Positions 10,856-30,715 of a stretch of DNA of 47,381 nucleotides are shown here, piece after piece. Origin of the DNA: a virus. Under the pieces are notes generated by a model. The model ran no database searches, was not told the DNA's origin, and was given only the letters and a program-made list of their open reading frames with translations. Every line of letters starts with the position of its first letter. Position 1 is the stretch's first letter. The stretch lies in the IMG/VR virus record IMGVR_UViG_3300042879_003765, positions 1 to 47,381 of that record; one strand, given 5' to 3'. A program made the position numbers and the translations under genes.

Positions 10856-11133
10856 TATTTTTTAGATTTAGTTTTAAATACTGGTAATGACCCTAATAAT
10901 GAACTATTACTGCCGTCTTTATTTACTACCTGTTCTAGTTTAGAATCAAATAATTCTAATTCTTCGCTACAAGCTTTGGTAAGTTCTAAATTACCTTCGC
11001 TTTTCATATAAATGAAATAAAGAATGTGGTCGTTGCTTGCTAATTCTTTTCCGAAGTAAGTCTTAGTACCGGCATTTGCAGATGCTTTTTGCTTACGTTC
11101 TAATTGATCTTTAAAAATTTCTGTTGCTTTCAT
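10855..11133 (-). CDS. Small hypothetical protein, 92 residues
   Basis: A soluble 92-residue protein (MKATEIFKDQLERKQKASAN) with a charged N-terminal helix, a central mixed region (about 28-70) and a Lys-rich C-terminus (KTKSKK). Its ATG overlaps the stop of the GT2 gene (ATGA) and its stop overlaps the next ATG, so it is embedded in the same transcript as the glycan genes. Function unknown. Confidence 0.65.
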   Translation of the reverse strand: MKATEIFKDQLERKQKASANAGTKTYFGKELASNDHILYFIYMKSEGNLELTKACSEELELFDSKLEQVVNKDGSNSSLLGSLPVFKTKSKK

Positions 11134-12164
11134 AGGAAATAAAGATTGTTATTTTCATAGTTAACTAAAGTGTTGATATGTATTTTAAATATATCTAATT
11201 CAAATTCGCCTTCCTCTCCGGATTCCGCTATAATATCTGAAAGATTCTGAATTATATTAAATGATTGTTCACTAAGCTTAGTACCATCAAATTCAATTAC
11301 AACATCATTCTCTCCTATAGGATAGTTGTTCTTTAAATTAAATACTCGTTTTTTTAAATCGAATGCAGTGTTAGGCTGCTCCTTATGTATATAAGAATCT
11401 GTGATAACTTGCATATCATCTTCAATGTAAATTCTATCACACCATGGTTCAAGTAAATCTAATAATTGTTCATTACATTTTTTAATTACAAATGCGATAT
11501 TGTATTTTTTATTATGAATAGATTTTCTAAACCCCCATTTTCGTATAAAATTTCTATTTGAGTTATATTCAATATTTCTGTAGTCACCGGACCTAGACGT
11601 TTTACTAACAAAATGATATACGAAACTAGGAGAAACTTTTCTTTCAAATCCTAGAAGAGAATACCTTAGATGTAAATCATCATCTTCACAAAACATCTTG
11701 AATGTACGACCGTCGATTCCAATATAATCTTCTTTCATACATCCGAAAAATAACTGCGATCCGCCATCAAGTAATGGGCCGGTGAAATTCAAAGAATTAA
11801 ATTTATCTTCATCAAACGATTTCAAGTCATTGCCACAGTCAATTATTTTTTTACCTGGATATTCGTCTCTATATATAGGAGGTTCAATTCTAGTATAAGT
11901 TACTATTCGATTTTTGCATATATGTAAATCCATGGACTCTATAAATCCTTTAGAAACGTACATATCATTATGTAGCAGAATTATTTTATCTCCTTTAGCT
12001 TTTGATACAGCTGTATTATAATTGTGCCCTAAAGTAACTTCAGAATTTTCTTCTAAAATTATTTCTACTTTAGATTCATCTGGATATATCTTTCTAATAT
12101 TTTGTATTAGAAAATCTGTGTACTCTTTATTAGTACCGTTTGTGGGTATGATTAAAGATATCAT
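11130..12164 (-). CDS. GT2-like glycosyltransferase
   Basis: A GT-A fold glycosyltransferase. I start it at the ATG at 12164 (MISLIIPTNG), which overlaps the upstream stop as ATGA; the longer frame begins with a TTG. Residues 1-70 show the GT2 beginning, LIIPTNG, then AKGDKIILLHND (DxD-like Asp at about 67). A second conserved region GSQLFFGCMKEDYIGIDGRTF (split: GSQLFFGCMKED / YIGIDGRTF) and EDDDLHLRY follow at about 145-180, matching the acceptor and catalytic-acid region. The C-terminal 120 residues are a separate unknown region. The sugar donor is unknown. Confidence 0.8.
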   Translation of the reverse strand: MISLIIPTNGTNKEYTDFLIQNIRKIYPDESKVEIILEENSEVTLGHNYNTAVSKAKGDKIILLHNDMYVSKGFIESMDLHICKNRIVTYTRIEPPIYRDEYPGKKIIDCGNDLKSFDEDKFNSLNFTGPLLDGGSQLFFGCMKEDYIGIDGRTFKMFCEDDDLHLRYSLLGFERKVSPSFVYHFVSKTSRSGDYRNIEYNSNRNFIRKWGFRKSIHNKKYNIAFVIKKCNEQLLDLLEPWCDRIYIEDDMQVITDSYIHKEQPNTAFDLKKRVFNLKNNYPIGENDVVIEFDGTKLSEQSFNIIQNLSDIIAESGEEGEFELDIFKIHINTLVNYENNNLYFL

Positions 12165-12961
12165 AGTGTATAATTGTTTCCAAATAAAGACCAATAATCA
12201 TTAACGACTTCTGTGTATGCTAATGTGGTAGATCCTAAATGGAATATAATTCCAGCATTTAAAAATTCAAAACTTTTATATTCTTTCAAAAAGCGTTCTT
12301 GTAATTGAAATAAATAAGGCACTTGACAATTGAACTCTTTAGTAACAAATGTTATTTCTTTAGAAAAAAGATCTTGTAATGCAATATTAACGGCTGTCTG
12401 ATCCATGGCGTCTATTCGAACTCCTCCTTCTTTGCCGATACCTTGCATGTGACAATTAATATCTTTTTCAGAATAATAATAGTCCCTATATTTTTTTAAT
12501 TCTTTCTGAAATTCTTTTAAATGCGTAGATTTCATAGAAACGAACCCAGCATTAAAGTATTTAGTAACTATAGAAAATGCTTGCGGGTTACATCCTAACC
12601 ATTGATTTAAATGATAATTTGCCGTGCCAACTCCGGCTTGATCCGGAACTACCACTATTTCTAGTTTATTATCTTTGAAAACCTGATTAAAATCGAATGC
12701 ATCCCATCTTACTATAGTATCGGCGTCTACAAATGTAATACGATCATAATCGAATATGCTAGGATCAACATCCGACCATCTATCAAAGCACATAGCAGCG
12801 TAATCTGGGTGGCCTATCGGGGTGTATTTATATCCGCGCACTAACATTAAATCGATACCGTGCAAAGCACAATAGTATTTCCAAGTATCAATACACTTAG
12901 AATAATTAGAATTGTTTTCTAAGTCATTGTATACGGGTATTACTATACAATTTTTTTCCAT
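12161..12961 (-). CDS. GT-A type glycosyltransferase with DAD motif
   Basis: A 266-residue protein with the nucleotide-sugar-binding core of GT-A enzymes: the N-terminal strand IVIPVYND, and RITFVDADTIVRWD with DAD at residues 79-81. It also has FNAGFVSMKSTHL (about 137-149), typical of GT8/GT-A acceptor loops, and DQTAVNIAL (about 188-196), a second acidic motif. It ends with FHLGSTT, like the metal-binding His of GT8 enzymes. Expected to act in the cytoplasm. Donor and acceptor are not deducible. Confidence 0.75.
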   Translation of the reverse strand: MEKNCIVIPVYNDLENNSNYSKCIDTWKYYCALHGIDLMLVRGYKYTPIGHPDYAAMCFDRWSDVDPSIFDYDRITFVDADTIVRWDAFDFNQVFKDNKLEIVVVPDQAGVGTANYHLNQWLGCNPQAFSIVTKYFNAGFVSMKSTHLKEFQKELKKYRDYYYSEKDINCHMQGIGKEGGVRIDAMDQTAVNIALQDLFSKEITFVTKEFNCQVPYLFQLQERFLKEYKSFEFLNAGIIFHLGSTTLAYTEVVNDYWSLFGNNYTL

Positions 12962-13888
12962 TTAAATTATATTTTTAGATTTTAGTTTATTAAAAGCAAT
13001 ATGTAAATATTCGGACAATTTAGATTCAAAAACCTCTCTTTGATTTGTTTTATTATCTTTTAATTTTAAAAAATTTCTATAATAGTTAGAAAATCCGTCT
13101 ACTGTGGGAGTAAGTAAGGTCCCTGTAGGATAGAACCAAATAGTTTCGCCTCTTAAAAGATATTGCTGCACGTCAACACCTGCAGGTTTTACATTGTTCA
13201 TTATTATCAATGAATATAAATCCCATGGGCCGTATCCTTTCCAATCAGACTGAATCTCGCACAGCTCTTCATACAAAGCTTTGTTATATAAATCAAACCA
13301 GCCTGCCCATTTACTTTTTTTAAGTGGTTGTAAAGAGATTTCTTCGTTAGAATTTTTTCTATTGAATTCTACATCAAATATATCTACATTCAGATAATCT
13401 GAATATGGAATATTTACATACTTAGGATCTGTGATTTCATCCCAGTCAGCATCTCCTACTTTAGATACTTGAGGACTTATTACAAAGTATTTGTTTTTTA
13501 TTTGCCTTGCACTTTCAATTAAATAATATAACAAGTGTTCGCTAAAATTAATATCCGGACAGATAGACATATAGTAATCCATTTCAGATGATATACAATC
13601 TCGTTGCAAATCTAAATGTCCGTATAATTCATCACCTTCATATATTTTTTTATTGTGAGTAACGCCTTCTAATAATATTGAAATCGTATTATATTTTTCA
13701 ATAAAGAATTCTTTAGGTATTTTACTATTTGGCCAATCAAAAGCATATGATGATAAATTTAAACACGAATCAATATGAATATTGATATCCTTAGGAAGAT
13801 AGTATAAAGAACGTTTTAATTGAGAAAAAGATAATAACGCATAATCTATCTCCCATGGCATTATATGATATGTTATTTTAATATTCAT
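12962..13888 (-). CDS. Putative glycosyltransferase-like protein
   Basis: A 308-residue soluble protein in the glycan operon. Features are DLQRDCISSEMDYYMSICPD (about 92-111), YFVISPQVSKVGDADWDEI (about 135-153) and WAGWFDLYNKALYEEL (about 194-209), with the rhythm of a diverged GT-A fold. However, the metal-binding DxD candidate DAD in GDADWDEI is not in the usual strand context. Neighbours on both sides are glycan enzymes and the spacing is 0-4 bases, so a glycosyltransferase is likely but not certain. Confidence 0.55.
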   Translation of the reverse strand: MNIKITYHIMPWEIDYALLSFSQLKRSLYYLPKDINIHIDSCLNLSSYAFDWPNSKIPKEFFIEKYNTISILLEGVTHNKKIYEGDELYGHLDLQRDCISSEMDYYMSICPDINFSEHLLYYLIESARQIKNKYFVISPQVSKVGDADWDEITDPKYVNIPYSDYLNVDIFDVEFNRKNSNEEISLQPLKKSKWAGWFDLYNKALYEELCEIQSDWKGYGPWDLYSLIIMNNVKPAGVDVQQYLLRGETIWFYPTGTLLTPTVDGFSNYYRNFLKLKDNKTNQREVFESKLSEYLHIAFNKLKSKNII

Positions 13889-14523
13889 TTCTTTACAAAT
13901 ATTTTATCTACCCCATATTCAGAAACTAAGTCGTATCCTAACTCGTTAATTAAATCTAAAATCTTTTTAGAATCATCATTATACCTATTCAACCATTTCT
14001 CACAAAATTCAATACACAATACTGGATTGTATTTTTTAATCGTATTCGCACACCCCAACAACGCTTTATATTCGTAACCTTCAATGTCTAGTTGAATTAA
14101 ATCGCATCCGGGCAAATTCAACGAATCTATTGTTATAGTAGGCACATATCCTATCCCACTAACATGAACTCCGCCAGTATCATTAGGCCGGTCGGGCCTA
14201 ATTAATTGTTGAGTTTGTACTGTCTCAGCTGTATTTCCTAAACAACATTGCATTTTTATTACATTAGGAGAATCAACATTTTGATTTAAACAATAAAAGT
14301 TAATTGGATCGGGTTCGAATGTGTATATAACATTGAAATGTGACGTAAATGAGTTTAGAAGATATCCACAATTTCCTCCGGCTTGTATCATTACGTTAGT
14401 AGTTTTAACGTGCGGCAATAGATGATTTGCTAAATCATTATATTCTGTTTGATGTTTCCAACTATTTTCATCACTAATCGGCCAAACCCATTTATTTTCT
14501 TTAAGAGTAGTATATTGTTTCAT
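13885..14523 (-). CDS. FkbM-family methyltransferase
   Basis: A 212-residue class I SAM-dependent methyltransferase of the FkbM type, which usually O-methylates sugars. The SAM-binding glycine motif is present as VMIQAGGNCGYLL (about 43-55), with the acidic strand YTFEPDPINFYCLNQN (about 70-85). LIQLDIEGYEYKALLG (about 141-156) is the family's diagnostic segment, and IEFCEKW follows. It overlaps the upstream epimerase gene by 23 bases. Location in the glycan run suggests methylation of the sugar made by this cluster; the position methylated is unknown. Confidence 0.85.
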   Translation of the reverse strand: MKQYTTLKENKWVWPISDENSWKHQTEYNDLANHLLPHVKTTNVMIQAGGNCGYLLNSFTSHFNVIYTFEPDPINFYCLNQNVDSPNVIKMQCCLGNTAETVQTQQLIRPDRPNDTGGVHVSGIGYVPTITIDSLNLPGCDLIQLDIEGYEYKALLGCANTIKKYNPVLCIEFCEKWLNRYNDDSKKILDLINELGYDLVSEYGVDKIFVKK

Positions 14524-15430
14524 TTATTTTTTTAAAATAATTAATAGTTTTTATAAGACCCGAGGTTAAATCCGTTTTAGGTTGAATACCCGTCAGTTTT
14601 AGTATTTTAGAATTATCACCACATATAAAAGGAGAAGTCAATTTTCTGTTTAATTCGGAATCGAATACGATTCTACTTTCACTATTAGTTAATTTATGTA
14701 TCTCGTTAATTATATTTTTTAAATTATATTGAATACCGGAACAAATATTGAACACCCCTTCTTCATCGGAGAGTAACAAACTATAAAAATAGTTAACAAA
14801 ATCATCTATATACAAATAATCAATCGTTTTATTGCACTCATCTAAAATTACTTCTTCTCCGTTTAAGAATTTTCTAATTAACAAAGGTATTAATCTAGTA
14901 TCCACATCATTAGGCCCGTAAATATAACAAGGTCTAACCCATGCCCATTTCATATTATTCTGTTCACAAAGTAACTTACTATAATTTTTGAACGTAAATT
15001 TTGATAATCCATACAAATTAATTGGATTTTCTTTAGAAGATTCATTTACTAATTCTGTAAAATTTCCATATTCTGAAAAACTTCCTAAACCTATGAACAT
15101 AGGCTTTTTAGGTAATTTACTTATCATTCGTATTAAATTTATACCGGGTTCTATATTATCATAGAATTGATTTAAATCATTAATGTCATTATAATTATTA
15201 CCGCCACTCCATCCACAATGTATTACAACATCGGGAGAGAATTCTGCCAATTCACCATTAAAATGTGGAATATCGTTTGTATACCCGTAACTAAATTTAA
15301 TCTGATGCAGAACAAGGTTTAAATTGTTAGTGCTACTAGAAAATACATATACTTCATTATTCTCAGAAATTAATTTTTTTACTATACTAGATCCTAAAAA
15401 TCCGTTGCCACCTGTAACTGCTATTTTCAT
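14501..15430 (-). CDS. NAD-dependent sugar epimerase/dehydratase or reductase (extended SDR)
   Basis: A 309-residue extended short-chain dehydrogenase. The Rossmann motif GGNGFLG is at residues 7-13 and the catalytic Tyr-x3-Lys is YGLSK at about 140-144. WVRPCYIYGPNDVDTRLIP (about 168-186) is the substrate-loop signature of UDP/dTDP-sugar enzymes. Such proteins epimerise, dehydrate or reduce nucleotide-sugars, for example the last NAD(P)H reduction of dideoxy sugars. It overlaps the next gene by 4 bases. The exact reaction cannot be read from sequence. Confidence 0.85.
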   Translation of the reverse strand: MKIAVTGGNGFLGSSIVKKLISENNEVYVFSSSTNNLNLVLHQIKFSYGYTNDIPHFNGELAEFSPDVVIHCGWSGGNNYNDINDLNQFYDNIEPGINLIRMISKLPKKPMFIGLGSFSEYGNFTELVNESSKENPINLYGLSKFTFKNYSKLLCEQNNMKWAWVRPCYIYGPNDVDTRLIPLLIRKFLNGEEVILDECNKTIDYLYIDDFVNYFYSLLLSDEEGVFNICSGIQYNLKNIINEIHKLTNSESRIVFDSELNRKLTSPFICGDNSKILKLTGIQPKTDLTSGLIKTINYFKKINETIYYS

Positions 15431-16302
15431 TTTAATTTGTTATAAGTTTCTTTGATTCCAAATTCTAAACCATAGAAATTAATTCCTAATGAATTTATCA
15501 AGTCGCTGTTCCCGGTATATGAAGAACCCAACAAATCGTTTATAACATTAATAGGGACTTTAGTATCATTTAAAGAATTTATGAAGTTAGCTACATCAAC
15601 CAAAGTAAGTTTATTTTTATAAACCATATTTAGAGTTTTTGGTAGATGTTGATGATAATTTTGTATGTAAAAATGTATTACCTGAATAATATCATAAACC
15701 CAAAAGAAATCAAAATATCTATTTTGATGAATCGTAATAGGAGTAGAATTTTTATAATTCAGAATAGCTGATTTGATGAACCGGTCTGGAGTTTCTAATT
15801 CACTAAACACATTAAATATTCTAAAATTATGAATATTAGAATCTAAATCAATTATTCGTTTAGCAATGATATTTTTAGAAAACCCATAATAATCTAAAGG
15901 AACTCTATTTATAACTTCATTTTCTAATGCAGAATCAAATCCCGTATCTCTATCCAATTCAGCACCGGAACCGAAATTAATCATAAACTTAAATCTGTCC
16001 TTGTTCTGAACTAGATTTTCAAATATTAATATGTTTTCATATACAACATTAGGATAGTCAGTAATTCTACGTTTACCTCCTAATGCAGAAGTATTTAATA
16101 CTACATCAATATTATTATTTTTAAAAAAAGAATCTACTTGTACTTTATCGGTCAAATCTAATTCATTTCTACCCAATGCAATAATTTTCAATTCACCATC
16201 ATATATCTGTGGATTTTGATATATTAGTTTATTGAAATGTTCAAAGTAACTGACTAATGAGCTTCCTAAAAACCCTTTTGCGCCTGTAATTAATATGTTC
16301 AT
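15427..16302 (-). CDS. NAD-dependent sugar reductase/epimerase (SDR, RmlD/WcaG-like)
   Basis: A 291-residue extended SDR. I start at the ATG at 16302 (MNILITGAKGFLG), which overlaps the PanB-type gene's stop as ATGA; a longer frame begins with a TTG. The Rossmann motif is GAKGFLG at about 7-13, with YYGFSKNIIAK (Y-x3-K) near residue 140 and the RIFNVFS segment. The short C-terminal domain resembles RmlD or fucose/colitose synthases, which reduce or epimerise 4-keto sugars. Two such SDRs in a row fit a multi-step deoxysugar route. Confidence 0.83.
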   Translation of the reverse strand: MNILITGAKGFLGSSLVSYFEHFNKLIYQNPQIYDGELKIIALGRNELDLTDKVQVDSFFKNNNIDVVLNTSALGGKRRITDYPNVVYENILIFENLVQNKDRFKFMINFGSGAELDRDTGFDSALENEVINRVPLDYYGFSKNIIAKRIIDLDSNIHNFRIFNVFSELETPDRFIKSAILNYKNSTPITIHQNRYFDFFWVYDIIQVIHFYIQNYHQHLPKTLNMVYKNKLTLVDVANFINSLNDTKVPINVINDLLGSSYTGNSDLINSLGINFYGLEFGIKETYNKLK

Positions 16303-17225
16303 TCGTTCCAATATTTTGATTGTTTAACTTCTTCTAATTCAGAATCTTTAATCGGATACATATATTCCTTTGAGGGAAACTTTTTTTCTTTAGTCTCTTC
16401 AATATATTCCCTTATTGCTAAAAAAGATAAGAAATTAAATCCATCATTCCTAGTATCTATACCGAATTTTTTTATATCTTCTTGCGCCGATATCAATTGT
16501 AAGTATTTGTTTATTACTTGTGGAATATAACACTTGGCAAACCAAGGCCTAAAAGTAGGATAGAATCCCAATAAGTCGTGCATAATAATTAATTGTCCAT
16601 CTAATAACCCAGCCCCAATTCCCATTACAGGTATTTCTAATTTCATTGCTATTTGTAAAGCCGATTCATGTGGCATTGCTTCTAATAACAACATACAGGC
16701 ACCGGCATCTTGTACTACCAATGCATCTTCCATTGTCTGATTAAAACTAGATATAGTTTTACCTTGAACTCGATATCCTCCAAAAGATACTGTTGATTGC
16801 GGAGTAAGTCCTAAGTGAGCTACTACTAAAATTCCTGAATCCGATATTGCTTTGATTCTTTCTGCCATACGAATACCACCTTCTAATTTAATAGCATCAC
16901 ACCCGGCTTCCTTTACAAATCTCATAGCATTTTTTATAGCCTCTTCATTAGATATTTCATATGAACCTTGTGGCATATCTCCTACTATGAATGTATTAGG
17001 AGCTCCTTTCCTAGAAGCTTTAGCTAGTTGTATCATTTCATCCATGGTTACCGGATTTGTGGTTTGATACCCCAATTCTACCATTCCTCCCGAATCTCCT
17101 ACTAGTATCATATCTATACCTGCTTGTTCGGCAGCATATGCAGTAGGATAACTATAAGCTGTAATCCAAGTGATAGGTTCACTTTTAGATTTCATTTGTT
17201 TAAAATGTAAGATTGATTTTTTCAT
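16299..17225 (-). CDS. panB: PanB-type ketopantoate hydroxymethyltransferase
   Basis: A 308-residue homologue of 3-methyl-2-oxobutanoate hydroxymethyltransferase, which transfers a hydroxymethyl group from methylene-THF to an alpha-keto acid. All usual active-site residues are visible: Asp44/Ser45 (VGDSGG), Asp83 (VGDMPQGSYE), Lys113 and Glu115 (AIKLEGG), His137 (AHLGLTPQS), Glu182 (LLLEAMP), and MGIGAGLLDGQLIIMHD at 201-217. It is about 40 residues longer than E. coli PanB at the C-terminus (about 264). It overlaps the ThDP enzyme gene by 4 bases and sits among sugar genes, so its acceptor may be a keto sugar or keto acid used for a glycan rather than pantothenate. Confidence 0.88.
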   Translation of the reverse strand: MKKSILHFKQMKSKSEPITWITAYSYPTAYAAEQAGIDMILVGDSGGMVELGYQTTNPVTMDEMIQLAKASRKGAPNTFIVGDMPQGSYEISNEEAIKNAMRFVKEAGCDAIKLEGGIRMAERIKAISDSGILVVAHLGLTPQSTVSFGGYRVQGKTISSFNQTMEDALVVQDAGACMLLLEAMPHESALQIAMKLEIPVMGIGAGLLDGQLIIMHDLLGFYPTFRPWFAKCYIPQVINKYLQLISAQEDIKKFGIDTRNDGFNFLSFLAIREYIEETKEKKFPSKEYMYPIKDSELEEVKQSKYWNE

Positions 17226-18997
17226 GATAAAGGTTTTACTATCATTTCATTTTTAAATTCATCTTCCGATAGAAATGGAAACATATTTTCCAAAGGTTGA
17301 GATACTAGTTTACCGTCTTCATTCTGTTTAGTAGAAGAAGAAGGGACTATATCTTGTTTAAATGGGCACATTACTTCTATTAAAACCGGTCCTGATAAAT
17401 TTAAAATTGTAGATAATTTATTTTTTAAATCGTTAGAAGTTTTCAATTTATAAAAAGGTATTCCATACGCACGTGCTATCTTTTTAATTTCGGGAAATGA
17501 AAGACCTGATTTAGAATCCGTACCGTAATACCGACTCTCAAAAAACTTATCCATAGTATTTCGTATAGATAAATATCCGCCATTATTTAATACGAACAAC
17601 TTAATAGGCAAATTGTAGTTAACTATAGTTTGTAATTCTTGTATGTTCATCTGAAATGATCCATCTCCCGTAATTCCCACTACATCTGTATTAGAAGCAA
17701 TTGCAGCACCTATAGAAGCAGGAAGTGTAAAGCCCATATCAGCTTGCGCACCCGAAGTAACGTATCTTTGATTACCGGATATTTGTATTGCTTGAGACGT
17801 AGTATAATATGCAGAGCCAGCATCACTTATAACAACGGAATCCTTTTTGTTTTTTTTAGAGAGTTCATTTAAAAAATAGTATATGTTAATTCCTTTTGAA
17901 ACGTTTTCATATTCAGAATTAAATACAGGCCATTTATTTTTCCACCTGTTACAAGTTTCTATCCAAGACTGATCTGCAAAGTAATTTAAATTTACAGTAT
18001 TTTCAAAAAACTTTTTTAGATCTAAATTAATTTCATAGTCAATATTAATAGTGTTCTTCTTATGTTCATAAGGATCGATATCTACTACTATTTTTTTAGC
18101 TTCTCTGGCAAAAGTTTCGTATCTAAATCCAGTAACGGATACACTTAAACTACTACCTAAAGAAATAATCAAATCACTGTTTTGCACAGCAAAGTTGCCT
18201 GCTCTATCACCTTTAGTACCTAGCCTTCCTACATATAAAGTATGGTCTGAAGGTAATAGATCAACACCTAAATAAGTAAATGCAACCGGCAAATTATACT
18301 TCTCTATAAATTTTCTAAATTGATTTTTAGTATCGGATAGATATATACCATAACCAGCAATCACAATAGGACGCTTAGAATTTAATAGAAGAGTTTCTAA
18401 TGTGGAAATATAATCTTTGTAGTCTTCCAATTTTTCAGGCTCTACAAAATGTTCTAAAGAAGTTTCATCTATATAACTACCTTGAACGTCTAATGGTATA
18501 TCAATCCACACCGGTCCGGGCCTTCCCTCTTCACACAAATAAAAAGCTTTTTCTAAATGATATGCAATCGAATTAGGATCAGTTATCATGACTGCATATT
18601 TAGTTATTGATTTTACTATCTCAACTATATTGGCTTCTTGAACTCCGAACTTTCTTAAAGGAATAGAAGAACAATAAGTAGTTTCTTTTTTGTTTACATT
18701 TCCAGATATGAAAACTACTTTATTACTATCCTGCCAGGCATCTAATAATCCTGTAATAGTATTAGTACCTCCGCAACCTGTAGTGGGCATTACCACAGAT
18801 ATTTGGTTGGTGATTTTAGTATATCCCAACGCAGACATTGCACACGCCTGTTCATGGTGATTGAAAATACCTTTAATCTTTTTACTCTTAGCTAATCCAT
18901 CGTTTAAAAACATAGCACCGCCACCCGTAACGGTGAATACGTGACTGATTCCCTTGGATTCTAAAAAAGATGCAACATAATCGGCAACTTTTACCAT
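17222..18997 (-). CDS. ThDP-dependent acetolactate synthase-like enzyme (YerE-like candidate)
   Basis: A 591-residue three-domain ThDP enzyme. The Glu that activates ThDP is in HHEQACAM (Glu49). GCGGTNTITGLLDAW (74-88) is the ALS-type loop, and the ThDP/Mg motif runs from GDGSFQM (444-450) to LNNGG (470-474). The middle domain (about 195-345) has the usual Rossmann strands. Length matches acetolactate synthase and YerE (about 570). YerE uses pyruvate to add a two-carbon branch to a 3,6-dideoxy-4-keto sugar; here an RmlB-type dehydratase, an RfbH-type 3-dehydrase and SDR reductases lie in the same operon, which supports that kind of role over valine synthesis. Confidence 0.87.
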   Translation of the reverse strand: MVKVADYVASFLESKGISHVFTVTGGGAMFLNDGLAKSKKIKGIFNHHEQACAMSALGYTKITNQISVVMPTTGCGGTNTITGLLDAWQDSNKVVFISGNVNKKETTYCSSIPLRKFGVQEANIVEIVKSITKYAVMITDPNSIAYHLEKAFYLCEEGRPGPVWIDIPLDVQGSYIDETSLEHFVEPEKLEDYKDYISTLETLLLNSKRPIVIAGYGIYLSDTKNQFRKFIEKYNLPVAFTYLGVDLLPSDHTLYVGRLGTKGDRAGNFAVQNSDLIISLGSSLSVSVTGFRYETFAREAKKIVVDIDPYEHKKNTINIDYEINLDLKKFFENTVNLNYFADQSWIETCNRWKNKWPVFNSEYENVSKGINIYYFLNELSKKNKKDSVVISDAGSAYYTTSQAIQISGNQRYVTSGAQADMGFTLPASIGAAIASNTDVVGITGDGSFQMNIQELQTIVNYNLPIKLFVLNNGGYLSIRNTMDKFFESRYYGTDSKSGLSFPEIKKIARAYGIPFYKLKTSNDLKNKLSTILNLSGPVLIEVMCPFKQDIVPSSSTKQNEDGKLVSQPLENMFPFLSEDEFKNEMIVKPLS

Positions 18998-19941
18998 ATA
19001 AATCTATTTTTGTAATAAGCAACTATATCTTGTAGTTCCACATCAAACTCTTTTTTAGGATACCATCCTAAGTTTCTTAACTTAGAATCATCTAACGCAT
19101 ATCTAACATCTTGACCGGGTCTATTACAAGAAAAATCTATATAATCACTGATTTGGTTATCTTCTATACCATACAATATAAGAATCTTTTTTATAGTATC
19201 CAAATTAGTTTGTTCAAATCCACCACAAATATTATAAATTTCATTTACAATTTCCGATTCAATGATAGTAATGACAGCATCAGCAGTATCCTGGGCATGT
19301 AACCAGTTTCTAATAGGAGTTCCGTTATTATGTAATGGAATCTTTTTTCCTACTTTTAAATATTTACAAGCTTTAGGAATTAGCTTTTCTACATATTGTC
19401 CGATTCCATAATTATTAGTAGGCCTAACTATTACATATGGAACTTTGTGAGTACGTCCCCAGGCTTTTACTAGCATATCTGCTGCTGCTTTAGTTGCTGA
19501 ATACGGATTGGAAGGTTTGAGCATATCCGTTTCTGTATGAAATCCCGAATCGATATCTCCGTAAACTTCATCCGTACTAAAATGTATTAGTATAGGCTTA
19601 GTAGAATTTTCACCTCTATGATTTTTTATTAATTCAAGAATATTATGTACACCATTGATGTTAGATGATATAAATTCCGCACTGCTAAATATTGAGTTTC
19701 CTACATGGGTTTCAGCTGCCGTATTAATAATATAATCGCAGTCATATAAAAATGTTAATTCATTTATATCACAATGTACAAATGAAAAATTTTCATACTT
19801 TTTAAATTCTTCTAGTAAATTTTTATTTGCTGCATATGTAATTTTATCTACTCCTTTTACATACCAACCTTTTTCTAAACACGTTCTAGTAATATAGGAT
19901 CCTATAAATCCTAAACATCCTGTTATATATACAATTTTCAT
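18991..19941 (-). CDS. RmlB-type nucleotide-sugar 4,6-dehydratase
   Basis: A 316-residue extended SDR close to dTDP-glucose 4,6-dehydratase. It has GCLGFIG (8-14), NTAAETHVGNSI (73-84), FSTDEVYGDI with the catalytic Asp-Glu (121-130), NPYSATKAAAD with Tyr147 and Lys151, and RPTNNYGIGQ. It makes a 4-keto-6-deoxy nucleotide-sugar, the common precursor of 6-deoxy, dideoxy and branched sugars. It overlaps the next gene (ThDP enzyme) by 7 bases. The nucleotide (dTDP, CDP or UDP) cannot be fixed; the motifs fit RmlB best. Confidence 0.88.
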   Translation of the reverse strand: MKIVYITGCLGFIGSYITRTCLEKGWYVKGVDKITYAANKNLLEEFKKYENFSFVHCDINELTFLYDCDYIINTAAETHVGNSIFSSAEFISSNINGVHNILELIKNHRGENSTKPILIHFSTDEVYGDIDSGFHTETDMLKPSNPYSATKAAADMLVKAWGRTHKVPYVIVRPTNNYGIGQYVEKLIPKACKYLKVGKKIPLHNNGTPIRNWLHAQDTADAVITIIESEIVNEIYNICGGFEQTNLDTIKKILILYGIEDNQISDYIDFSCNRPGQDVRYALDDSKLRNLGWYPKKEFDVELQDIVAYYKNRFIW

Positions 19942-19942
19942 T

Positions 19943-20872
19943 TTAAAATTTACAATTACATTGTTGTTCTAAAAAATCCATGGTTTCTTTGTTGAACCAC
20001 TTATGTTTTATTTCTTCTATAGTTTCGTTATACTCTTCTTTAGATTTAACGCCTAAAGCTTCAGCATAGTGAAACACTTTTATCTGTTTACTATCTTGAG
20101 TATAAAGTTTATTATCTTTTATTCGATACGTCGAAGTAGGATATACATTTCCTATAACAATGCTGTTAGGATCTTTATAATTGCCACTCCACACTTGACC
20201 CCTGTACATCTGATTTCCCCCGCAAGCTACTCCTTTAGATCGTACATTATACAATACTTTAGTTTTTACATATGGGAAATCTACTATTTTAGCATTGATT
20301 CCCAATTCTTTTTGATTTATATAACAATAATTCATTCCACCTTGATCCTGGTGTTCAGTCCAATATTGAAATGTAATATCATGCAATAGAGTAGCCATTT
20401 TAGAATTATTGATACACGTTACGTCTGCATTAATAAATGATACGTCTTGATATGAATTTCCTTCATATTCAAAAACTTCTGTTTTAGGTTTCCAATATTT
20501 AGTTTGCAAAAAACTATATGGAGGCCCTGAAGAAAAAATTACATCCGGTTCATCATTATCTAAAAATTCATCTAATCTACTACACGTTAAAGTATCTACA
20601 CCTAATCGGATTATTTTAGAATAACCCTTAATCAACATCAACTTTTCAATTAACTTTAAAAGTATCAAAGCTAATTCATCGTAATACTCAGTTATGTTAA
20701 GTTCCTGTAAATACGAATTAAAATTTTGGTTTGTAATATGTATTACATCTACTTCCGGATTCCACTGTTTAAAACTATTTATAGCATTATAAGAAAAAAA
20801 GTTATTTCCTTTATAATTAGTTAAATCCCCGTGAGTTATTTCGAGAAATAAACAACCTATTTTTTTATTCAT
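19943..20872 (-). CDS. Putative GT-A glycosyltransferase
   Basis: A 309-residue protein with a GT-A like core: KIIRLGVDTLTCSRLDEF (about 87-103) places an Asp (93) where GT8-type enzymes bind the metal and nucleotide. SFINADVTCINNSK (about 145-158) is a second nucleotide-sugar fold segment, and QDQGGMNYCYINQ follows (DQxxxN-type motif). It ends with VFHYAEALG, resembling the terminal metal-binding His of this fold. It lies between a methyltransferase and the dehydratase with 1-2 base spacing. Donor and acceptor unknown. Confidence 0.7.
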   Translation of the reverse strand: MNKKIGCLFLEITHGDLTNYKGNNFFSYNAINSFKQWNPEVDVIHITNQNFNSYLQELNITEYYDELALILLKLIEKLMLIKGYSKIIRLGVDTLTCSRLDEFLDNDEPDVIFSSGPPYSFLQTKYWKPKTEVFEYEGNSYQDVSFINADVTCINNSKMATLLHDITFQYWTEHQDQGGMNYCYINQKELGINAKIVDFPYVKTKVLYNVRSKGVACGGNQMYRGQVWSGNYKDPNSIVIGNVYPTSTYRIKDNKLYTQDSKQIKVFHYAEALGVKSKEEYNETIEEIKHKWFNKETMDFLEQQCNCKF

Positions 20873-20873
20873 A

Positions 20874-21440
20874 TTAATTATTGAATCTTAGAGATATGAT
20901 TTCATCTCCGTTAGGATTATTATTTATACGTAAATCTAAAACATACAATCCCAATTCTTTTTGAAGTTTGTTTAAATAATATAAATTAGATTCATGAATA
21001 TCTTCACAAAACAAAACACCACCAGTATTTAATAAAGCATAGTAGTTTCTAAAGAACCATTCTTGAGACTCCCATGTATGCGGACCGTCATCGATGATAA
21101 TATCAAAAGTACCTTCCTTTTCATAAATACGATTTAACATATCATATGTATATGCATTACATTCCGGTCCGGTATATAATTTAACTTTATCATTAACCAC
21201 AGATCCTTGATATTCTTGGTTGTCGATTCCTACATATTTTTCTACATATGGTATTGCAGGAAAGGATCCTGCAGACCCGTTGCCGAATAAACTTATTCCT
21301 ATTTCTAGTACTTTTAAAGGCCTATTAAATTTTAAATACTGTGAATTAAATACTAAGTCATATACAGGACCGTATCTATGCGTAGTATTTTTATCTGTAG
21401 AACTATTCAATAATATATTTCCTATATCGCAATATTGCAT
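20874..21440 (-). CDS. SAM-dependent methyltransferase, MycF/TylF-like
   Basis: I start at the ATG at 21440, which overlaps the upstream TGA (TGATG); a GTG one codon earlier is also possible. The 188-residue protein has the SAM motif KVLEIGISLFGNGSAGSFP (about 39-57) and an acidic strand YVGIDNQEYQ. The segment FDIIIDDGPHTWESQEWFF (about 114-132), with GGVLFCEDIHE, is the metal-binding signature of macrocin-type O-methyltransferases. It probably methylates a sugar hydroxyl in this cluster. Confidence 0.8.
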   Translation of the reverse strand: MQYCDIGNILLNSSTDKNTTHRYGPVYDLVFNSQYLKFNRPLKVLEIGISLFGNGSAGSFPAIPYVEKYVGIDNQEYQGSVVNDKVKLYTGPECNAYTYDMLNRIYEKEGTFDIIIDDGPHTWESQEWFFRNYYALLNTGGVLFCEDIHESNLYYLNKLQKELGLYVLDLRINNNPNGDEIISLRFNN

Positions 21441-22756
21441 CACTTAATTGTATTTATAAAATTATTTAAAATTAATTCAATGTAATCAGTTTTTTTCTTA
21501 TCAATTACTGGACTAGTACCTAAAAAGAAAGTATCCGTAGTAACTTTTCTAGCAACAGGATATTTTTCAATAACCTCTTTAGGATCCATCAAACCCTCGT
21601 AAGCGGGTTGTAACATTATGTTACCTGCAAAATAAGGCCTGGTCTGTATTTTGTTAGCTTCAAAGAACTGGCAAATATCAGAACGCTTGAAGGGTGCACT
21701 ATCTTTTATAGTGACGGGAAATGCAAACCAATCCGGATCGGAATTAGGTTGTGCCTTATGCAAATGAAAATACTCTTCATATTTTTCAAATGCCTTAAAT
21801 AGATTGTTATAATTTTCTCTTCTTATGGTACCAATCTTTTCTAACTTTTCCATTTGTACTAAACCAATAGAAGCCTGCAATTCAATAGGTTTGAGGTTAT
21901 ATCCGATTTCCTCATATGTATATTTATGATCAAATAAATAATCGGGAAGTGATGGTAACCAATTACTAAACCTACAACCGCAAGATCCTTTCTCTAAGAG
22001 GTTTTGTTTACCTACGCAATAACAACCCCTTCCCCACTCACGGAAGCTTCTAACGATTCTCTCAGTATTTTCATCATTGCAAGCTACGAACCCTCCTTCT
22101 CCTATTGTCATATGATGTGCCGGATAAAAAGAACAACTAGCCATTTCACCGAAAGAGCCTAGCTTTTTTCCTTCATATGTAGATCCTAATGCATCACAAC
22201 AATCTTCTAGTAAAATTAATTTATACTTTTCTACTAGTTCCATTAACCGTTTCATATTAGGAGGATTTCCTAATACGTGTGCAAATGTGATTATTTTGGC
22301 GTCCGGATTTTCTATACAAACCTTTTCTACTTGATCTAAATCCAAGTTAAGAGTTTCTAATTCTATATCTACAAACACAGGTTGAAATCCTACTTGAAAT
22401 ATAGGATTAATAGTAGTAGGGAATCCGGCAATAGGAGTTATTACTTTAGTTCCCTTAGGAAAACTGTATCCTCGTTTAGATGTCATTGCTAACATCATCA
22501 ATAAATTAGCACTCGAACCACTATTGGTTAGAAGTCCATATCGTTTATCAAATAACTTAGGAAACTTAGTTTCAAATTTAATAGCTTCAGCTCCCAATAC
22601 TAACCACTCTCCTAATAAAGTTTTAACTGCTGCTACGTATTCATCTGAAGAAAAATACGGGCCCGCATATTGTACCCAATCTTTTCCTGCTTCCCAAGTC
22701 TTTTCTGAATGTTTTTGTTTAATGTAGGTTTCTACTAATTCTAAAATCTCTTTCAT
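21440..22756 (-). CDS. rfbH: CDP-4-dehydro-6-deoxyglucose 3-dehydrase-type enzyme (RfbH/E1), [2Fe-2S] PMP
   Basis: A 438-residue DegT/StrS-fold protein, the length of E1/AscC (about 437). The PLP-lysine is replaced by His (SFYPAHHMTIGEGG, His214-215), diagnostic of the PMP-dependent 3-dehydrase branch rather than aminotransferases. Cysteines Cys187, Cys245 and Cys247 follow the E1 iron-sulfur spacing C-x57-C-x1-C; the fourth is Cys259 or Cys261, farther away than the usual x7. DHKYTYEEIGYNLKPIELQA is the family's C-terminal signature. It removes the 3-OH of a 4-keto-6-deoxy sugar and needs an E3-type reductase, not seen here. Confidence 0.9.
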   Translation of the reverse strand: MKEILELVETYIKQKHSEKTWEAGKDWVQYAGPYFSSDEYVAAVKTLLGEWLVLGAEAIKFETKFPKLFDKRYGLLTNSGSSANLLMMLAMTSKRGYSFPKGTKVITPIAGFPTTINPIFQVGFQPVFVDIELETLNLDLDQVEKVCIENPDAKIITFAHVLGNPPNMKRLMELVEKYKLILLEDCCDALGSTYEGKKLGSFGEMASCSFYPAHHMTIGEGGFVACNDENTERIVRSFREWGRGCYCVGKQNLLEKGSCGCRFSNWLPSLPDYLFDHKYTYEEIGYNLKPIELQASIGLVQMEKLEKIGTIRRENYNNLFKAFEKYEEYFHLHKAQPNSDPDWFAFPVTIKDSAPFKRSDICQFFEANKIQTRPYFAGNIMLQPAYEGLMDPKEVIEKYPVARKVTTDTFFLGTSPVIDKKKTDYIELILNNFINTIK

Positions 22757-22793: not shown

Positions 22794-23831
22794 TTAGAAT
22801 TTAAGCATTTGCATCAATCCATCTAAATTACTTACACTCCAAGGAACATTATTTGAATCAGTAACATTAGGATCTTTTAACTCGGGAAGCAATGTCCCGC
22901 CACCTGTAAGTAAAGCTAAATTAGTACCCGCTTTAGTAGCAAATACATATGAATGCGATCCTAACCAACCTTCCATTAAAGGATGCGTCAAAATAAAATT
23001 GTTATTATTGATGTTAGAAAATAGAATATTAATATTCGATGCACTACTTTGTTGTAAAATGTTTTTATATGATTTGAATAAACGTATTTTATCGACCATA
23101 CTCAAATCCATCAATTCAACTATATCATAATCCAATTCGGTTTTTAACCTCTCTATTAATTCTAATTCATTAACTAAAATCCGATTATGATACCAACCAC
23201 GTTTAATGGTATCCTGTCTAGAAATATACACTCCGGGTTTTTCAGAAGACACGGCTTCTATTTTATTTGCCGTATTAATAATGGCATTGATGATTTTATC
23301 ATATCCAAATCCTTCTGGGAATGAATAATAACCGTTAGGTAAATATAACGATTTTACTTTATATCTAACATTATTTTTAAATACTACATACTCAACATCT
23401 TCATAATATAAATCTAGCCATTCTTTAATAAATGAATAATCGCCTTCCGACTGATAAAAAGATTCTAAAATTCCTATTTTCATTTTTTTATTTTGAAGCG
23501 AATCATAACATAAACACTTACAAAAGAAATTAAAAAAGAAATGTATGTAATTCAATCCCGCTTGATCAAATAATAAAAAAATAGGTTCATCTATTTCTAC
23601 ATCATATTCCTCCGAATCATTAGTTATAGAAGAATCGTATACTAAATTTTTATTTCCAATCATCTGTATAGAATTATCTATACCCGCAATGACTTTCTTT
23701 TTATCATGAAATACTTCAATACCATACGGAGTATCTAAATGTTTTACATAACAATCGTCGAGTATTGTAATGTATTGCCTAGATAAATTTGCACTTGAAT
23801 CCACTACAAGATCCTTTATTTGATATTTCAT
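22794..23831 (-). CDS. GT61/DUF563-like glycosyltransferase
   Basis: A 345-residue protein with the DUF563 pattern: LLFDQAGLNYIHFFFNFF (about 87-104), then GVYISRQDTIKRGWYHNR (about 200-217) and NELELIERL, followed by VELMDLSMVDKIRLF (about 239-253). Near the end are LGSHSYVFATKAGTNL and LLTGGGT. Family members are usually beta-xylosyl- or N-acetylglucosaminyl-type transferases, but the donor here is unknown. It overlaps the trifunctional gene by 4 bases (ATGA) and lies 38 bases before the rfbH-type gene. Confidence 0.7.
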   Translation of the reverse strand: MKYQIKDLVVDSSANLSRQYITILDDCYVKHLDTPYGIEVFHDKKKVIAGIDNSIQMIGNKNLVYDSSITNDSEEYDVEIDEPIFLLFDQAGLNYIHFFFNFFCKCLCYDSLQNKKMKIGILESFYQSEGDYSFIKEWLDLYYEDVEYVVFKNNVRYKVKSLYLPNGYYSFPEGFGYDKIINAIINTANKIEAVSSEKPGVYISRQDTIKRGWYHNRILVNELELIERLKTELDYDIVELMDLSMVDKIRLFKSYKNILQQSSASNINILFSNINNNNFILTHPLMEGWLGSHSYVFATKAGTNLALLTGGGTLLPELKDPNVTDSNNVPWSVSNLDGLMQMLKF

Positions 23832-25684
23832 ATAAGTGAGTTGATTAATTTAAAGTATTTAGTAAATTTAACAAGGTCTTCATCGTGCAAAGGTAATAGA
23901 CAAAATAACAGACTAGCAGTTATTAATTTGATATTCTTTAATTCAGAACTAGTAAATTGCGATTCAAAATATTTTTTATGCGTGGTTACATAAAAAGAAT
24001 CTATTTCAAAATTATTTAAAATAAAATCATATCCTATTATAGATTGATATATTTTAGCATAATCATAGTAAGGATCTCCTAAAAGAGTCAATTCATCTCC
24101 TTGCTTTCCCAGCATATCAATCAATTTAATTCCATTTTTAGTTCGAATTACATTAGTGAATACCGGATCGCCATGTATAACGACTACAGAATCTTTAAAT
24201 GATTCTTCATATAAAGTTAAAGAAGTTAATAATTTTTGATAGATATTTTCTGAATTTTCATATTTAGAATATAATTCTAAATTGTTTAAATATCTATTTT
24301 GCAACTTCTTAGTGTAATTGGAACTAATATCGATAGATCCTTCTATTTTAACTGAATGAATATCTTTAATAGTATCTAGTAATATATCTACATCTGCAAG
24401 TATTAAAGTTTTATTTGAATACATGTATGAATAACTAATACCGTCTACATATTCCAAAACCAACTTATTTTTATATGAATCTATTAGAGATGGGAAATAC
24501 TTTTTCAATTTTACTGGCATATTATTATACCAATAAACCTCTCCTAAATTAGTAGTCTGTTTAATTACAGAATTAGATTCATATTCAATTTTATTGAAAC
24601 TTCTAGGAGGTATATTAGTATCGTAAATACCGATAGCTTTGTCCAAAGAAGAATTGGCATTTATAGCCAAATCATCAATATAATAATCCGCATACGGCTT
24701 TCCAAAGAATATTTCATCATAAGGAATATCATATTTGTGTAAAGTATCAAATGTAATTTTTCCTATATCCGCAATAGCTTTGCCCGGATTTCCATTGCTG
24801 GTTCGCATTCGCCTAGCCGTATGAATAATAATAGTATTGCCTAGTTTCTTTAGTAGTTTAAGGTAATCAATATTTTTTTGTATAGGCAACACCGACGTGT
24901 AATCATTAGGAATTACGGGATATGTAACTAAAGTATTATCTAAATCAAAACATATTCTTAAGTTAGAAGCTTTAGATTTATTTTTATTACAATAACTTTT
25001 TAATTGTAATGGAGTGCCTACACAATTAAATTTTTCTATTTCGCAAGCGTGTATTGAAATATTATCCTTTAACATTTCTGAATACACGTGAGAAATATAA
25101 AGTTCTTCATTTAAGTCTAAAATCTTAGAACAGTATTCTTTTAATATCTTAGCAGATGCAAATCCATACGCTCCCGTATTTGCATTATTAGATATTTTTA
25201 TTTTTTCTTTGATACCCGATACTTGATTTTCGTTTAATTCGAGATACGAGAATATAGGATTTGGATCTGTATCATTGAAATAGAATATCAAGTTTTTATT
25301 AATTGATTGTTTATATTTGCTAATGATATCATCATCATAAAAAGTATCACAATCCAACAAAAGAACGTTTTCATCTAATTCATTATCAGAAAAAGTATCA
25401 AGACCTTTCAATACAGTTTCAGCCGCTCCTCTAGTAGGATTGTCTAAAGAAATAAATGATATATTGATTTTGGGAAAATAGAACTTAATTAGGGATTCAA
25501 AATTATATTCCTTTAAATTATTGTGATAAATGATTTGAATTTTATCCGTATCATTTAAATTTAATGATTCGATAACTCGATAAATCATGGATTTACCTAA
25601 AACATTTATTAATGGTTTAGGAATTTGGAATCCCTCATCTTTGAATCTATTTCCTACACCTCCGATAGGAATGATTATATTCAT
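23828..25684 (-). CDS. Trifunctional fusion: nucleotidyltransferase, HAD phosphatase, APH/choline-kinase-like kinase
   Basis: A 618-residue three-domain protein. Residues 1-235 are a sugar-nucleotidyltransferase (IIPIGGVGNRF, GFQIPKPLINV, VLLLDCDTF at 107-115). Residues 241-350 are a HAD phosphatase (FDLDNTLV with Asp247/Asp249, HTARRM 288-293, FFGKPYADYYIDD 326-338). Residues 380-618 are an APH/choline-kinase fold with the Brenner motif HGDPVFTN (504-511) and LIDM (Asp523). Together they could phosphorylate, trim and activate a sugar, with release of phosphate. ATGA overlaps on both sides show tight coupling to a GT2 and a GT61. Confidence 0.85.
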   Translation of the reverse strand: MNIIIPIGGVGNRFKDEGFQIPKPLINVLGKSMIYRVIESLNLNDTDKIQIIYHNNLKEYNFESLIKFYFPKINISFISLDNPTRGAAETVLKGLDTFSDNELDENVLLLDCDTFYDDDIISKYKQSINKNLIFYFNDTDPNPIFSYLELNENQVSGIKEKIKISNNANTGAYGFASAKILKEYCSKILDLNEELYISHVYSEMLKDNISIHACEIEKFNCVGTPLQLKSYCNKNKSKASNLRICFDLDNTLVTYPVIPNDYTSVLPIQKNIDYLKLLKKLGNTIIIHTARRMRTSNGNPGKAIADIGKITFDTLHKYDIPYDEIFFGKPYADYYIDDLAINANSSLDKAIGIYDTNIPPRSFNKIEYESNSVIKQTTNLGEVYWYNNMPVKLKKYFPSLIDSYKNKLVLEYVDGISYSYMYSNKTLILADVDILLDTIKDIHSVKIEGSIDISSNYTKKLQNRYLNNLELYSKYENSENIYQKLLTSLTLYEESFKDSVVVIHGDPVFTNVIRTKNGIKLIDMLGKQGDELTLLGDPYYDYAKIYQSIIGYDFILNNFEIDSFYVTTHKKYFESQFTSSELKNIKLITASLLFCLLPLHDEDLVKFTKYFKLINSLI

Positions 25685-26313
25685 ATGGTATTATAAAACT
25701 CGTTTTGTCTTTCTTGTCTTCCAATATCTTTGATGTGAATCAAAGCAAAGTCTTCCGTATCCATTGGTAAGTGCGATCCGTTTTTCCAACCTACAGGTCT
25801 TTCATGAACAGCTCCTTCCCATTTAATATCGGGTATATTTTTATACAGTCTAAGTTGGTAATCCGGCCAATTCACTCTACCGAATGAATCTACATTCCAA
25901 CGCCATTTAGCAATATGTTCATCCGTCAATCCGTTTACTTTATTCACTCTAGGCACTGCAATTAAATCAACATCATCGTTGTTTAAATTTAGAATGTCCC
26001 GTAAATTGTCTAATAAAATATCACTAGGATATTCATCGGCATCGATATTAAAAATCCAATTTTTAGTACACAACCTGTTTAAATGATTTTTATGCTGAGC
26101 AAAGTTTTTATTTAAATGACCGAAATAATATTTAAAGTTAGGCACTGAAGAAAAGTCTTTACATAATTCTTTTACACTATCCGTTACGTTGTCGGTGTCT
26201 AATAATAACACAATTTCATCTTCTGCATTTATTTTACTCAATAAAACATTGATCAACTTATGCAATTCATAGTATTCATTACAAGCTAATATAGCATAAC
26301 TAATAGTAATCAT
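25681..26313 (-). CDS. GT2 glycosyltransferase
   Basis: A 210-residue GT2 enzyme of the short type. The N-terminal strand is ISYAILACNEYYEL (3-16) with the nucleotide-binding acidic region VLLLDTDN at about 35-42. The DxD is in NWIFNIDADEYPS (about 85-97), and the acceptor region is DYQLRLYKNIPDIKWEGAVHE (split at DYQLRLYKN / IPDIKWEGAVHE), typical of GT2. It is compact, ending soon after the catalytic domain, so it probably acts without a membrane anchor. ATGA overlap with both neighbours. Confidence 0.82.
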   Translation of the reverse strand: MITISYAILACNEYYELHKLINVLLSKINAEDEIVLLLDTDNVTDSVKELCKDFSSVPNFKYYFGHLNKNFAQHKNHLNRLCTKNWIFNIDADEYPSDILLDNLRDILNLNNDDVDLIAVPRVNKVNGLTDEHIAKWRWNVDSFGRVNWPDYQLRLYKNIPDIKWEGAVHERPVGWKNGSHLPMDTEDFALIHIKDIGRQERQNEFYNTI

Positions 26314-27362: not shown

Positions 27363-27374
27363 TTGTTTTAATTA

Positions 27375-27830
27375 TTAAGATTCCAAAATACCCAATTCTA
27401 TACAAGCATTTTTAAAATCGTTTCTATTAAATTCTATACTATTTTTCATATCTAATCTAGTAGAATAATATTCCCCATCTTTGCCCGGGATTGGGTATTT
27501 AGATCTATCTTCTTCAGGAATTTCTATAACTTTAGCTACTCTCCAATTCCAATTATTTTCATTAACCCCATCGGGAAATATAATTCCTTTAGAAGGAAAA
27601 TTAAGAACTGATGGATACCAAACTAAATCAGTGTCCGTATCTACGAACTTAGAATTTTTAATCAATTCCGGAGTAGCCATTTCCCATTTACGTAATTCTA
27701 TAGATCCATTTTTGTTTAAACTAGTAGTTGTATAACCGCAGTTCATACATAGATAGGAATCAATATCATTTTCAGTTTCATGATAGCATTCCACCGTATG
27801 GCATACTTTACATCTTATTTTATTTTCCAT
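27375..27830 (-). CDS. Zinc-ribbon protein of unknown function
   Basis: A 151-residue protein with an N-terminal four-cysteine ribbon: CKVC at residues 7-10 and CMNC at about 28-31, with a His at 17. The remainder is a soluble domain rich in aromatic and acidic residues (NWNWRVAKVIEIPEEDR), ending in a helical region. Short zinc-ribbon proteins of this kind occur in many phages. It overlaps the GT4 gene by 11 bases. Function unknown; nucleic-acid or protein binding is possible. Confidence 0.65.
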   Translation of the reverse strand: MENKIRCKVCHTVECYHETENDIDSYLCMNCGYTTTSLNKNGSIELRKWEMATPELIKNSKFVDTDTDLVWYPSVLNFPSKGIIFPDGVNENNWNWRVAKVIEIPEEDRSKYPIPGKDGEYYSTRLDMKNSIEFNRNDFKNACIELGILES

Positions 27831-29142: not shown

Positions 29143-29143
29143 A

Positions 29144-30103: not shown

Positions 30104-30107
30104 AACC

Positions 30108-30674: not shown

Positions 30675-30688
30675 AACCTTTTATTTAT

Positions 30689-30698: not shown

Positions 30699-30715
30699 GA
30701 TTCAGGGACAAAACC

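Follow-up and report, generated by a model that had tools for sequence, protein, structure and literature searches.

Genes of the operon

In a 47,381-nt stretch of viral DNA (positions 1–47,381 of the IMG/VR record IMGVR_UViG_3300042879_003765, which is a fragment; hereafter the window), we analyzed a block of genes at positions 14501–22756 that we propose, from its sequence, to be a YerE-like branched-sugar pathway that is carried by a phage and, as newly proposed here, fed by the hydroxymethyltransferase PanB. Open reading frames (ORFs) of at least 80 aa in the window lie mostly on the minus strand, and the block is, judged from its letters, a translationally coupled minus-strand operon in which neighboring coding regions overlap by 4–23 nt or are separated by 1-nt gaps. 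In the order of transcription, the genes encode RfbH, a methyltransferase-like protein, a GT-A-like protein, RmlB, a thiamine diphosphate (ThDP) enzyme, PanB, two short-chain dehydrogenases/reductases (SDR 2 and SDR 1), and an FkbM protein:

21440..22756, minus strand: RfbH/E1-type 3-dehydrase, dependent on pyridoxamine 5'-phosphate and [2Fe-2S] (NF011936; alignment with 3bcx)
20874..21443, minus strand: methyltransferase-like protein (Methyltransf_24, 24.6 bits, under the Pfam cut-off of 26.3)
19943..20872, minus strand: probable GT-A-fold glycosyltransferase without a Pfam family (AlphaFold model and Foldseek)
18991..19941, minus strand: RmlB-type nucleoside diphosphate (NDP)-glucose 4,6-dehydratase (TIGR01181, under cut-off)
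17222..18997, minus strand: YerE-like ThDP carboligase (all three TPP domains; match to JanthE, 8rph)
16299..17225, minus strand: PanB-type hydroxymethyltransferase of a sugar-cluster clade, the proposed donor maker for the ThDP enzyme (TIGR00222, above cut-off)
15427..16311, minus strand: SDR 2, proposed branch-carbonyl reductase (Pfam Epimerase)
14501..15430, minus strand: SDR 1, epimerase/reductase (Pfam Epimerase; best PDB match UDP-glucose 4-epimerase, 69 bits)
13885..14523, minus strand: FkbM-type methyltransferase, overlapping SDR 1 (Pfam PF05050, 55 bits)

An initial annotation of this DNA had placed an RmlB-type 4,6-dehydratase, an E1/RfbH-type 3-dehydrase, an acetolactate-synthase-like ThDP enzyme, and two SDR reductases within one operon. 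All of these genes were found on the minus strand at 14501–22756, and both SDRs carry the Pfam Epimerase domain. The genes for PanB (16299–17225), the GT-A-like protein (19943–20872), and the methyltransferase-like protein (20874–21443) had been left out.

The RfbH protein scores 455 bits against the NCBIfam RfbH model NF011936 (cut-off 423), and its best PDB match is E1 of Yersinia (3bcx, 327 bits; ColD, 171 bits). The hallmarks of E1 are a His in place of a Lys, [2Fe-2S] cysteines, and the requirement for a reductase partner (PMC8987622). As the initial annotation had claimed, the protein has the His-for-Lys change: its SFYPAHH motif aligns with the E1 motif in which His replaces the pyridoxal 5'-phosphate lysine, and in the 3bcx alignment the cysteines of its EDCC, CYC, and SC motifs line up with the four [2Fe-2S] cysteines of E1. 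The RmlB-type assignment is favored by the STDEVYG and YSATK motifs, by the ten best PDB matches, all ten of which are deoxythymidine diphosphate (dTDP)-glucose 4,6-dehydratases, and by a score, below the cut-off, of 299.7 bits against the dTDP-glucose 4,6-dehydratase model TIGR01181 versus 71.5 bits against the model for cytidine diphosphate (CDP)-glucose. The protein resembles the 4,6-dehydratases of dTDP-glucose more than those of CDP-glucose; the loci of bacterial relatives encode the CDP-type enzymes RfbF and RfbG. Codon-position divergence in the genes for RfbH, RmlB, the ThDP enzyme, and PanB is highest at the third and lowest at the second position and therefore reveals constraint at the protein level.

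The ThDP enzyme, PanB, and their linkage

The best PDB match of the ThDP enzyme is 8rph (398.7 bits; the next solved structure scores 267), which is JanthE, a YerE-like enzyme whose donors include 4-hydroxy-2-oxovalerate (PMC12188165). To place the enzyme, we built a tree by a quick method from 83 sequences, from which near-copies had been removed and which include 25 PanB-linked viral sequences, that of the window among them. In this tree the acetohydroxyacid synthase (AHAS) references (plant, IlvG, IlvB, and IlvI) fall outside the group formed by JanthE, 5ahk (which we take to be PpYerE), and all proteins from our loci, with Shimodaira-Hasegawa-like approximate likelihood ratio test (SH-aLRT) values of 95 and 100; in the comparison with AHAS that the initial annotation had suggested, the ThDP protein is thus placed outside AHAS. 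The column holding the specificity Trp of AHAS is Thr in 132 of the 139 loci proteins, including the window enzyme, and the Glu that activates ThDP is present in all 139; the cofactor motif of the window enzyme is GDG. On the tree placement and the Thr at the Trp column, we rejected a valine-pathway or catabolic AHAS. The acceptor-binding Arg of AHAS proved nondiagnostic as a marker: most YerE-like relatives have it too, and Ser replaces it only in a subset to which the window enzyme belongs. The assignment of the protein as a YerE-like carboligase outside AHAS is well supported by sequence, and a ketone is its predicted acceptor.

Among the hot-spot positions of JanthE, V121 is kept in the window enzyme, and the other four are changed (Y268 to K, P293 to S, Y297 to F, and K567 to S). 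PanB-linked ThDP enzymes have V121 and K268 in 46 of 46 cases; those linked to HMGL, HpcH, or NeuB mostly have D121 and R293. The AlphaFold model of the window enzyme has a mean predicted local distance difference test (pLDDT) value of 61 and was left out of the fold comparison. At some loci (L164:4243-6004, L165, L166, L174, L230, L012, and L015) the enzyme is split over a pair of ORFs with a slight overlap: the N and M domains are on one and the C domain is on the other, which may reflect a two-subunit enzyme or frameshifts.

The panB and ThDP genes have a four-base overlap. PanB matches its Pfam model with 294 bits and TIGR00222 with 259.8 bits (cut-off 207.6), and all metal-binding and catalytic residues are kept (D45, D84, K112, E114, and H136 in Escherichia coli numbering). 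The normal PanB reaction yields a 4-hydroxy-2-oxo acid. The E. coli enzyme is a class II aldolase that joins several 2-oxo acids to formaldehyde (PMC7610986). In a quick tree with long branches, PanBs of sugar clusters are set apart from seven housekeeping PanBs with a value of 98. The closest relatives of the window PanB differ from those of the window ThDP enzyme in the two trees, which would fit exchange of donor genes within a kept pathway.

Two scans of IMG/VR starting from the ThDP enzyme yielded 63 viral loci. PanB is encoded within five genes of the ThDP enzyme in 45 of these, an HpcH-type aldolase in five, Ldh_2 in two, and NeuB in one. RfbH accompanies the ThDP enzyme in 58 of the 63 viral loci and in 52 of 80 bacterial loci. 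Two additional scans started from PanB; they share the same 113 candidates and hence overlap. In the 80 viral loci whose PanB is closest to that of the window, the ThDP enzyme is always encoded on the PanB strand at a distance of no more than 6 kb, and in 77 it directly adjoins PanB (57 before PanB and 20 after). Ranking by the PanB of a Microcystis phage gave a ThDP enzyme in 78 of 80 loci (75 new loci and three already seen), the two exceptions being L244, which has panC, and L245, which is short. The only examined viral panB locus in which panC was found is L244. On this genomic context, in which panC is absent from the viral panB loci except L244 and the partner is a ThDP enzyme instead, we rejected a function of PanB in pantothenate synthesis. 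In Microcystis phage MaAM05 (L145:4944-8103), panB and panC lie close together, likely a true pantothenate case. A B12-binding radical SAM protein, which might C-methylate the donor or the sugar, is encoded directly ahead of PanB and the ThDP enzyme at L211:4413-5945 and L232:4368-5858.

Dozens of viral contigs carry the gene set, which is thus shared beyond this phage, and from its sequence context a complete enzyme kit for an unusual branched sugar appears to be carried by dozens of other large aquatic phages too. Among 18 large module-bearing contigs tested, eight encode a T4-type gp23 capsid protein and five a gp43-like polymerase. INPHARED isolates contain no relative of the ThDP enzyme above ~32% identity, the better matches looking like host DNA; many ThDP matches filed as phages (Listeria, Staphylococcus, and Salmonella entries) are apparently bacterial housekeeping genes.

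Among the 80 bacterial ThDP loci, PanB is found once; the other donor-type enzymes, for which examples have Pfam support, are HMGL-like (DRE-TIM) aldolases (22 loci), class-I aminotransferases (16), NeuB (13), HpcH (10), and a KDPG/KHG aldolase (1), with two types together in two loci and none in 19. Donor-type enzymes occupy 26% of the positions next to the ThDP enzyme in bacteria versus 1.6% of those beyond five genes, and 41% versus 1.4% in viruses. This suggests that the slot beside the ThDP enzyme is a place for makers of 2-oxo acids, which in viruses would be filled by PanB. One contig of a metagenome-assembled genome (L017) has the order RfbF-RfbG-RfbH-ThDP enzyme-PanB; its cluster PanB is 65% identical to the window PanB, and a second PanB elsewhere in the same genome is 41% identical. 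Apart from that of L017 itself, no sugar-type PanB was found in 299 genomes of the L017 family, and none in 369 genomes of a second class in a scan that had no positive control. The scan of bacterial contigs used two short peptide patterns only, so bacterial PanB-ThDP pairs are perhaps undercounted.

Flanking genes and phage setting

Glycosyltransferases are encoded on both sides of the operon block:

22794..31120, minus strand: flanking glycan genes (GT61, NTP-transferase fusion, GT2, NKWYS-like below cut-off, two GT1-like, and unassigned ORFs)
11130..13888, minus strand: flanking glycan genes (GT2, GT8-like below cut-off, and one unassigned ORF)

The fusion protein (23828-25684) joins an NTP-transferase domain to a domain like the HAD phosphatases of capsule biosynthesis and an unassigned C-terminal part. 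Within the operon, the AlphaFold model of the GT-A-like protein has a mean pLDDT of 66, and glycosyltransferases make up 50 of the 50 Foldseek matches listed, at TM-scores of only ~0.3; homologs are present in four related loci. Homologs of the methyltransferase-like protein were sought in related loci and none were found. In most of the viral loci SDR 2 is conserved after PanB, and SDR 1 is restricted to some close relatives, with close homologs in L004, L010, L011, and L107.

Judged from its gene content, the window is part of a T4-like phage, because it encodes a gp43-type DNA polymerase (nearest to that of Microcystis phage Mel-JY01, 40%), a gp44-type clamp loader, a phage-type GroEL (33953-35575; ~58% identity to GroEL of Flavobacterium immuto phages), and an endolysin. 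An alcohol-dehydrogenase-like and a GFO/IDH/MocA-like protein are encoded beside the polymerase (39422-41291), and a UvdE-type UV endonuclease lies at 7326-8243. A protein like tRNA-guanine transglycosylase (TGT), a weak match under the Pfam cut-off (36619-37851), and GTP cyclohydrolase I (43876-44472) could point to deazaguanine modification.

Proposed pathway, alternatives, and known systems

From gene identities, motifs, order, conservation, linkage, and tree placement, we infer the reactions, donor, nucleotide, and target of the following scheme. We consider it probable that the operon specifies a pathway, carried by a phage, for a 3,6-dideoxyhexose branched at C4, in which a ThDP-dependent branching step is fed by PanB and the branch is hydroxylated and erwiniose-like. 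The RmlB-type enzyme would form NDP-4-keto-6-deoxyglucose, with the sequence favoring dTDP as the nucleotide, and the E1-type RfbH would then remove the C3 hydroxyl with electrons from host proteins, which are proposed because no E3 is seen in the window. PanB would add a hydroxymethyl group to a small 2-oxo acid (pyruvate, 2-oxobutanoate, or 3-methyl-2-oxobutanoate). The resulting 4-hydroxy-2-oxo acid would be decarboxylated by the YerE-like enzyme, and its hydroxylated acyl group would be joined to the ketone at C4 to form a tertiary alcohol. Having PanB as the partner of the ThDP enzyme therefore points to a hydroxymethylated 2-oxo-acid donor and a longer, hydroxylated branch. SDR 2 would reduce the branch carbonyl, and neighboring glycosyltransferases would attach the sugar to the virion, the DNA, or the host surface. 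The core idea of the initial annotation, that a phage uses a ThDP enzyme to branch a 4-keto-3,6-dideoxy sugar, is well supported by the YerE-like, non-AHAS nature of the enzyme and by the RfbH genes in 58 of the 63 viral loci.

SpnQ runs on ferredoxin or flavodoxin systems (PMC8987622), an example of such systems standing in for the reductase partner, and those of the host could supply electrons to RfbH. A 4Fe-4S LdpA-like protein, a possible electron donor to RfbH in these modules, is encoded alongside HpcH-type viral modules (L098:12379-13518; also L102, L103, L105, and L109).

We lean slightly toward a broader proposal, that large T4-like phages use a PanB-fed ThDP pathway to make a previously undescribed C-branched 3,6-dideoxy sugar, that the branch is varied in evolution by swapping of the donor enzyme, and that the majority of viral panB genes serve sugar synthesis and not vitamin supply. 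Before reduction, the branches might be ones such as 3-hydroxypropanoyl, 3-hydroxy-2-methylpropanoyl, and 3-hydroxy-2,2-dimethylpropanoyl, and the swapped enzymes are proposed to be PanB, HpcH-type aldolase, Ldh_2, and NeuB in viruses and aldolases and aminotransferases in bacteria.

Several observations weigh against a PanB-fed pathway of this kind. The branches of JanthE and PpYerE are long, and both the ThDP and the PanB tree are quick ones. The active-site differences among the ThDP enzymes track phylogeny as well as donor type. Ten of the 63 viral ThDP loci encode no donor-type enzyme; four of the ten are on contigs that stop at the ThDP gene. The RmlB score against TIGR01181 is below the equivalog cut-off of 365, and a motif scan of the fragmentary window for an E3-like or ferredoxin protein found none except the TGT-like ORF.

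If PanB were incidental, the genes would make up a yersiniose-type pathway with pyruvate as the donor and a two-carbon branch, the analogy drawn in the initial annotation. The set of RfbH, ThDP enzyme, and SDR is the same, pyruvate is the donor of YerE (PMC12247030), and PanB is missing from some viral loci. However, PanB, which had been overlooked, directly adjoins the ThDP enzyme in 77 of the 80 viral loci closest to the window PanB and lies within five genes of it in 45 of the 63 viral ThDP loci, the slot is filled in bacteria by other 2-oxo-acid makers, and ErwE, which rejects pyruvate and prefers 4-hydroxy-2-oxo acids, demonstrates such donors in this enzyme class (PMC12247030). The two-carbon analogy is probably wrong, and we regard a yersiniose-type pathway as unlikely. 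Far harder to sustain, and in our estimate highly improbable, is a shortened valine-to-pantothenate metabolism, with the ThDP enzyme as an AHAS and PanB as a source of ketopantoate that raises host coenzyme A (CoA). The names AHAS and PanB both appear on the pantothenate pathway map, the most abundant vitamin auxiliary metabolic gene (AMG) of an ocean oxygen minimum zone has been read in this way (PMC8940887), and real viral panB-panC pairs exist in Microcystis phage MaAM05 and L244; yet the ThDP protein is not an AHAS by tree or Trp position, PanC occurs in only one of the examined viral panB loci, the genes are set among RfbH, RmlB, and glycosyltransferases, and the families IlvC, IlvD, PanC, and PanE are absent from the scanned ORFs of the window.

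PanB might also act on the sugar and hydroxymethylate the carbon beside the ketone, in either the 4-keto-dideoxy sugar or the ThDP product. The 2-oxo acid of PanB is chelated through its carboxylate and keto oxygens, and an NDP-sugar does not offer this carboxylate-plus-keto chelation. Although PanB makes C–C bonds beside a carbonyl and can accept some large partners (PMC7610986), action on the sugar would also leave its swap with unrelated 2-oxo-acid makers unexplained, and we give this idea scarcely more credence than the pantothenate one.

Under the PanB-fed pathway, the partnership with PanB points to a new way of making the branch donor and to modular variation of sugar branches. Some viral panB genes taken as vitamin B5 genes may instead serve sugar synthesis, which would amend the ecological interpretation of viral panB in a way that can be tested. 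Rare branched sugars on the virion, the phage DNA, or the host surface would have a possible bearing on host range or defense.

A search of a limited set of papers found neither a viral branched-sugar pathway nor PanB in one, and PanB may have been mentioned in such clusters before. Bacterial surface glycans are the known setting of YerE-like branching enzymes, and a 2025 review points to viruses for unexplored relatives (PMC12247030). Viral genes from a karst lake include ilvB, rfbG, and rfbE, without a sugar-branching reading (PMC8226683). RfbH of isolated cyanophages (e.g., S-H68) is, as here, an E1-type dehydrase among sugar genes, but these phages have no ThDP enzyme of the clade found in the window. 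The viral "pantoate transferase" AMGs of marine viruses belong to the same enzyme family as the window PanB and were read as vitamin B5/CoA supply (PMC8940887); at the IMG/VR panB loci examined here, the genomic context points to sugar branching. With ketopantoate hydroxymethyltransferase PanB, the window protein shares the full catalytic set and a TIGR00222 score above cut-off, whereas it differs from housekeeping PanB in its separate clade, in the lack of panC at nearly all viral loci, and in its ThDP partner. JanthE of Janthinobacterium (8rph), the nearest solved structure to the window ThDP enzyme, is YerE-like with broad 2-oxo-acid donors and bulky ketone acceptors but has a CDG motif where the window enzyme has GDG, and four of its five hot-spot residues are changed in the latter. 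The yersiniose A pathway (YerE, Yersinia pseudotuberculosis) likewise comprises a 4,6-dehydratase, an E1 dehydrase, a ThDP carboligase, and a reductase; unlike the window operon, it uses pyruvate as the donor and CDP-glucose enzymes, has no known PanB, and is encoded on a bacterial chromosome. In the erwiniose pathway (ErwE, Pectobacterium atrosepticum), a YerE-like ThDP enzyme also transfers a hydroxylated acyl group from a 4-hydroxy-2-oxo acid, in that case onto CDP-4-keto-3,6-dideoxyglucose (PMC12247030). The operon described here, compared with ErwE by its published description rather than by sequence, differs in that its genes are those of a phage and its proposed donor maker is PanB.

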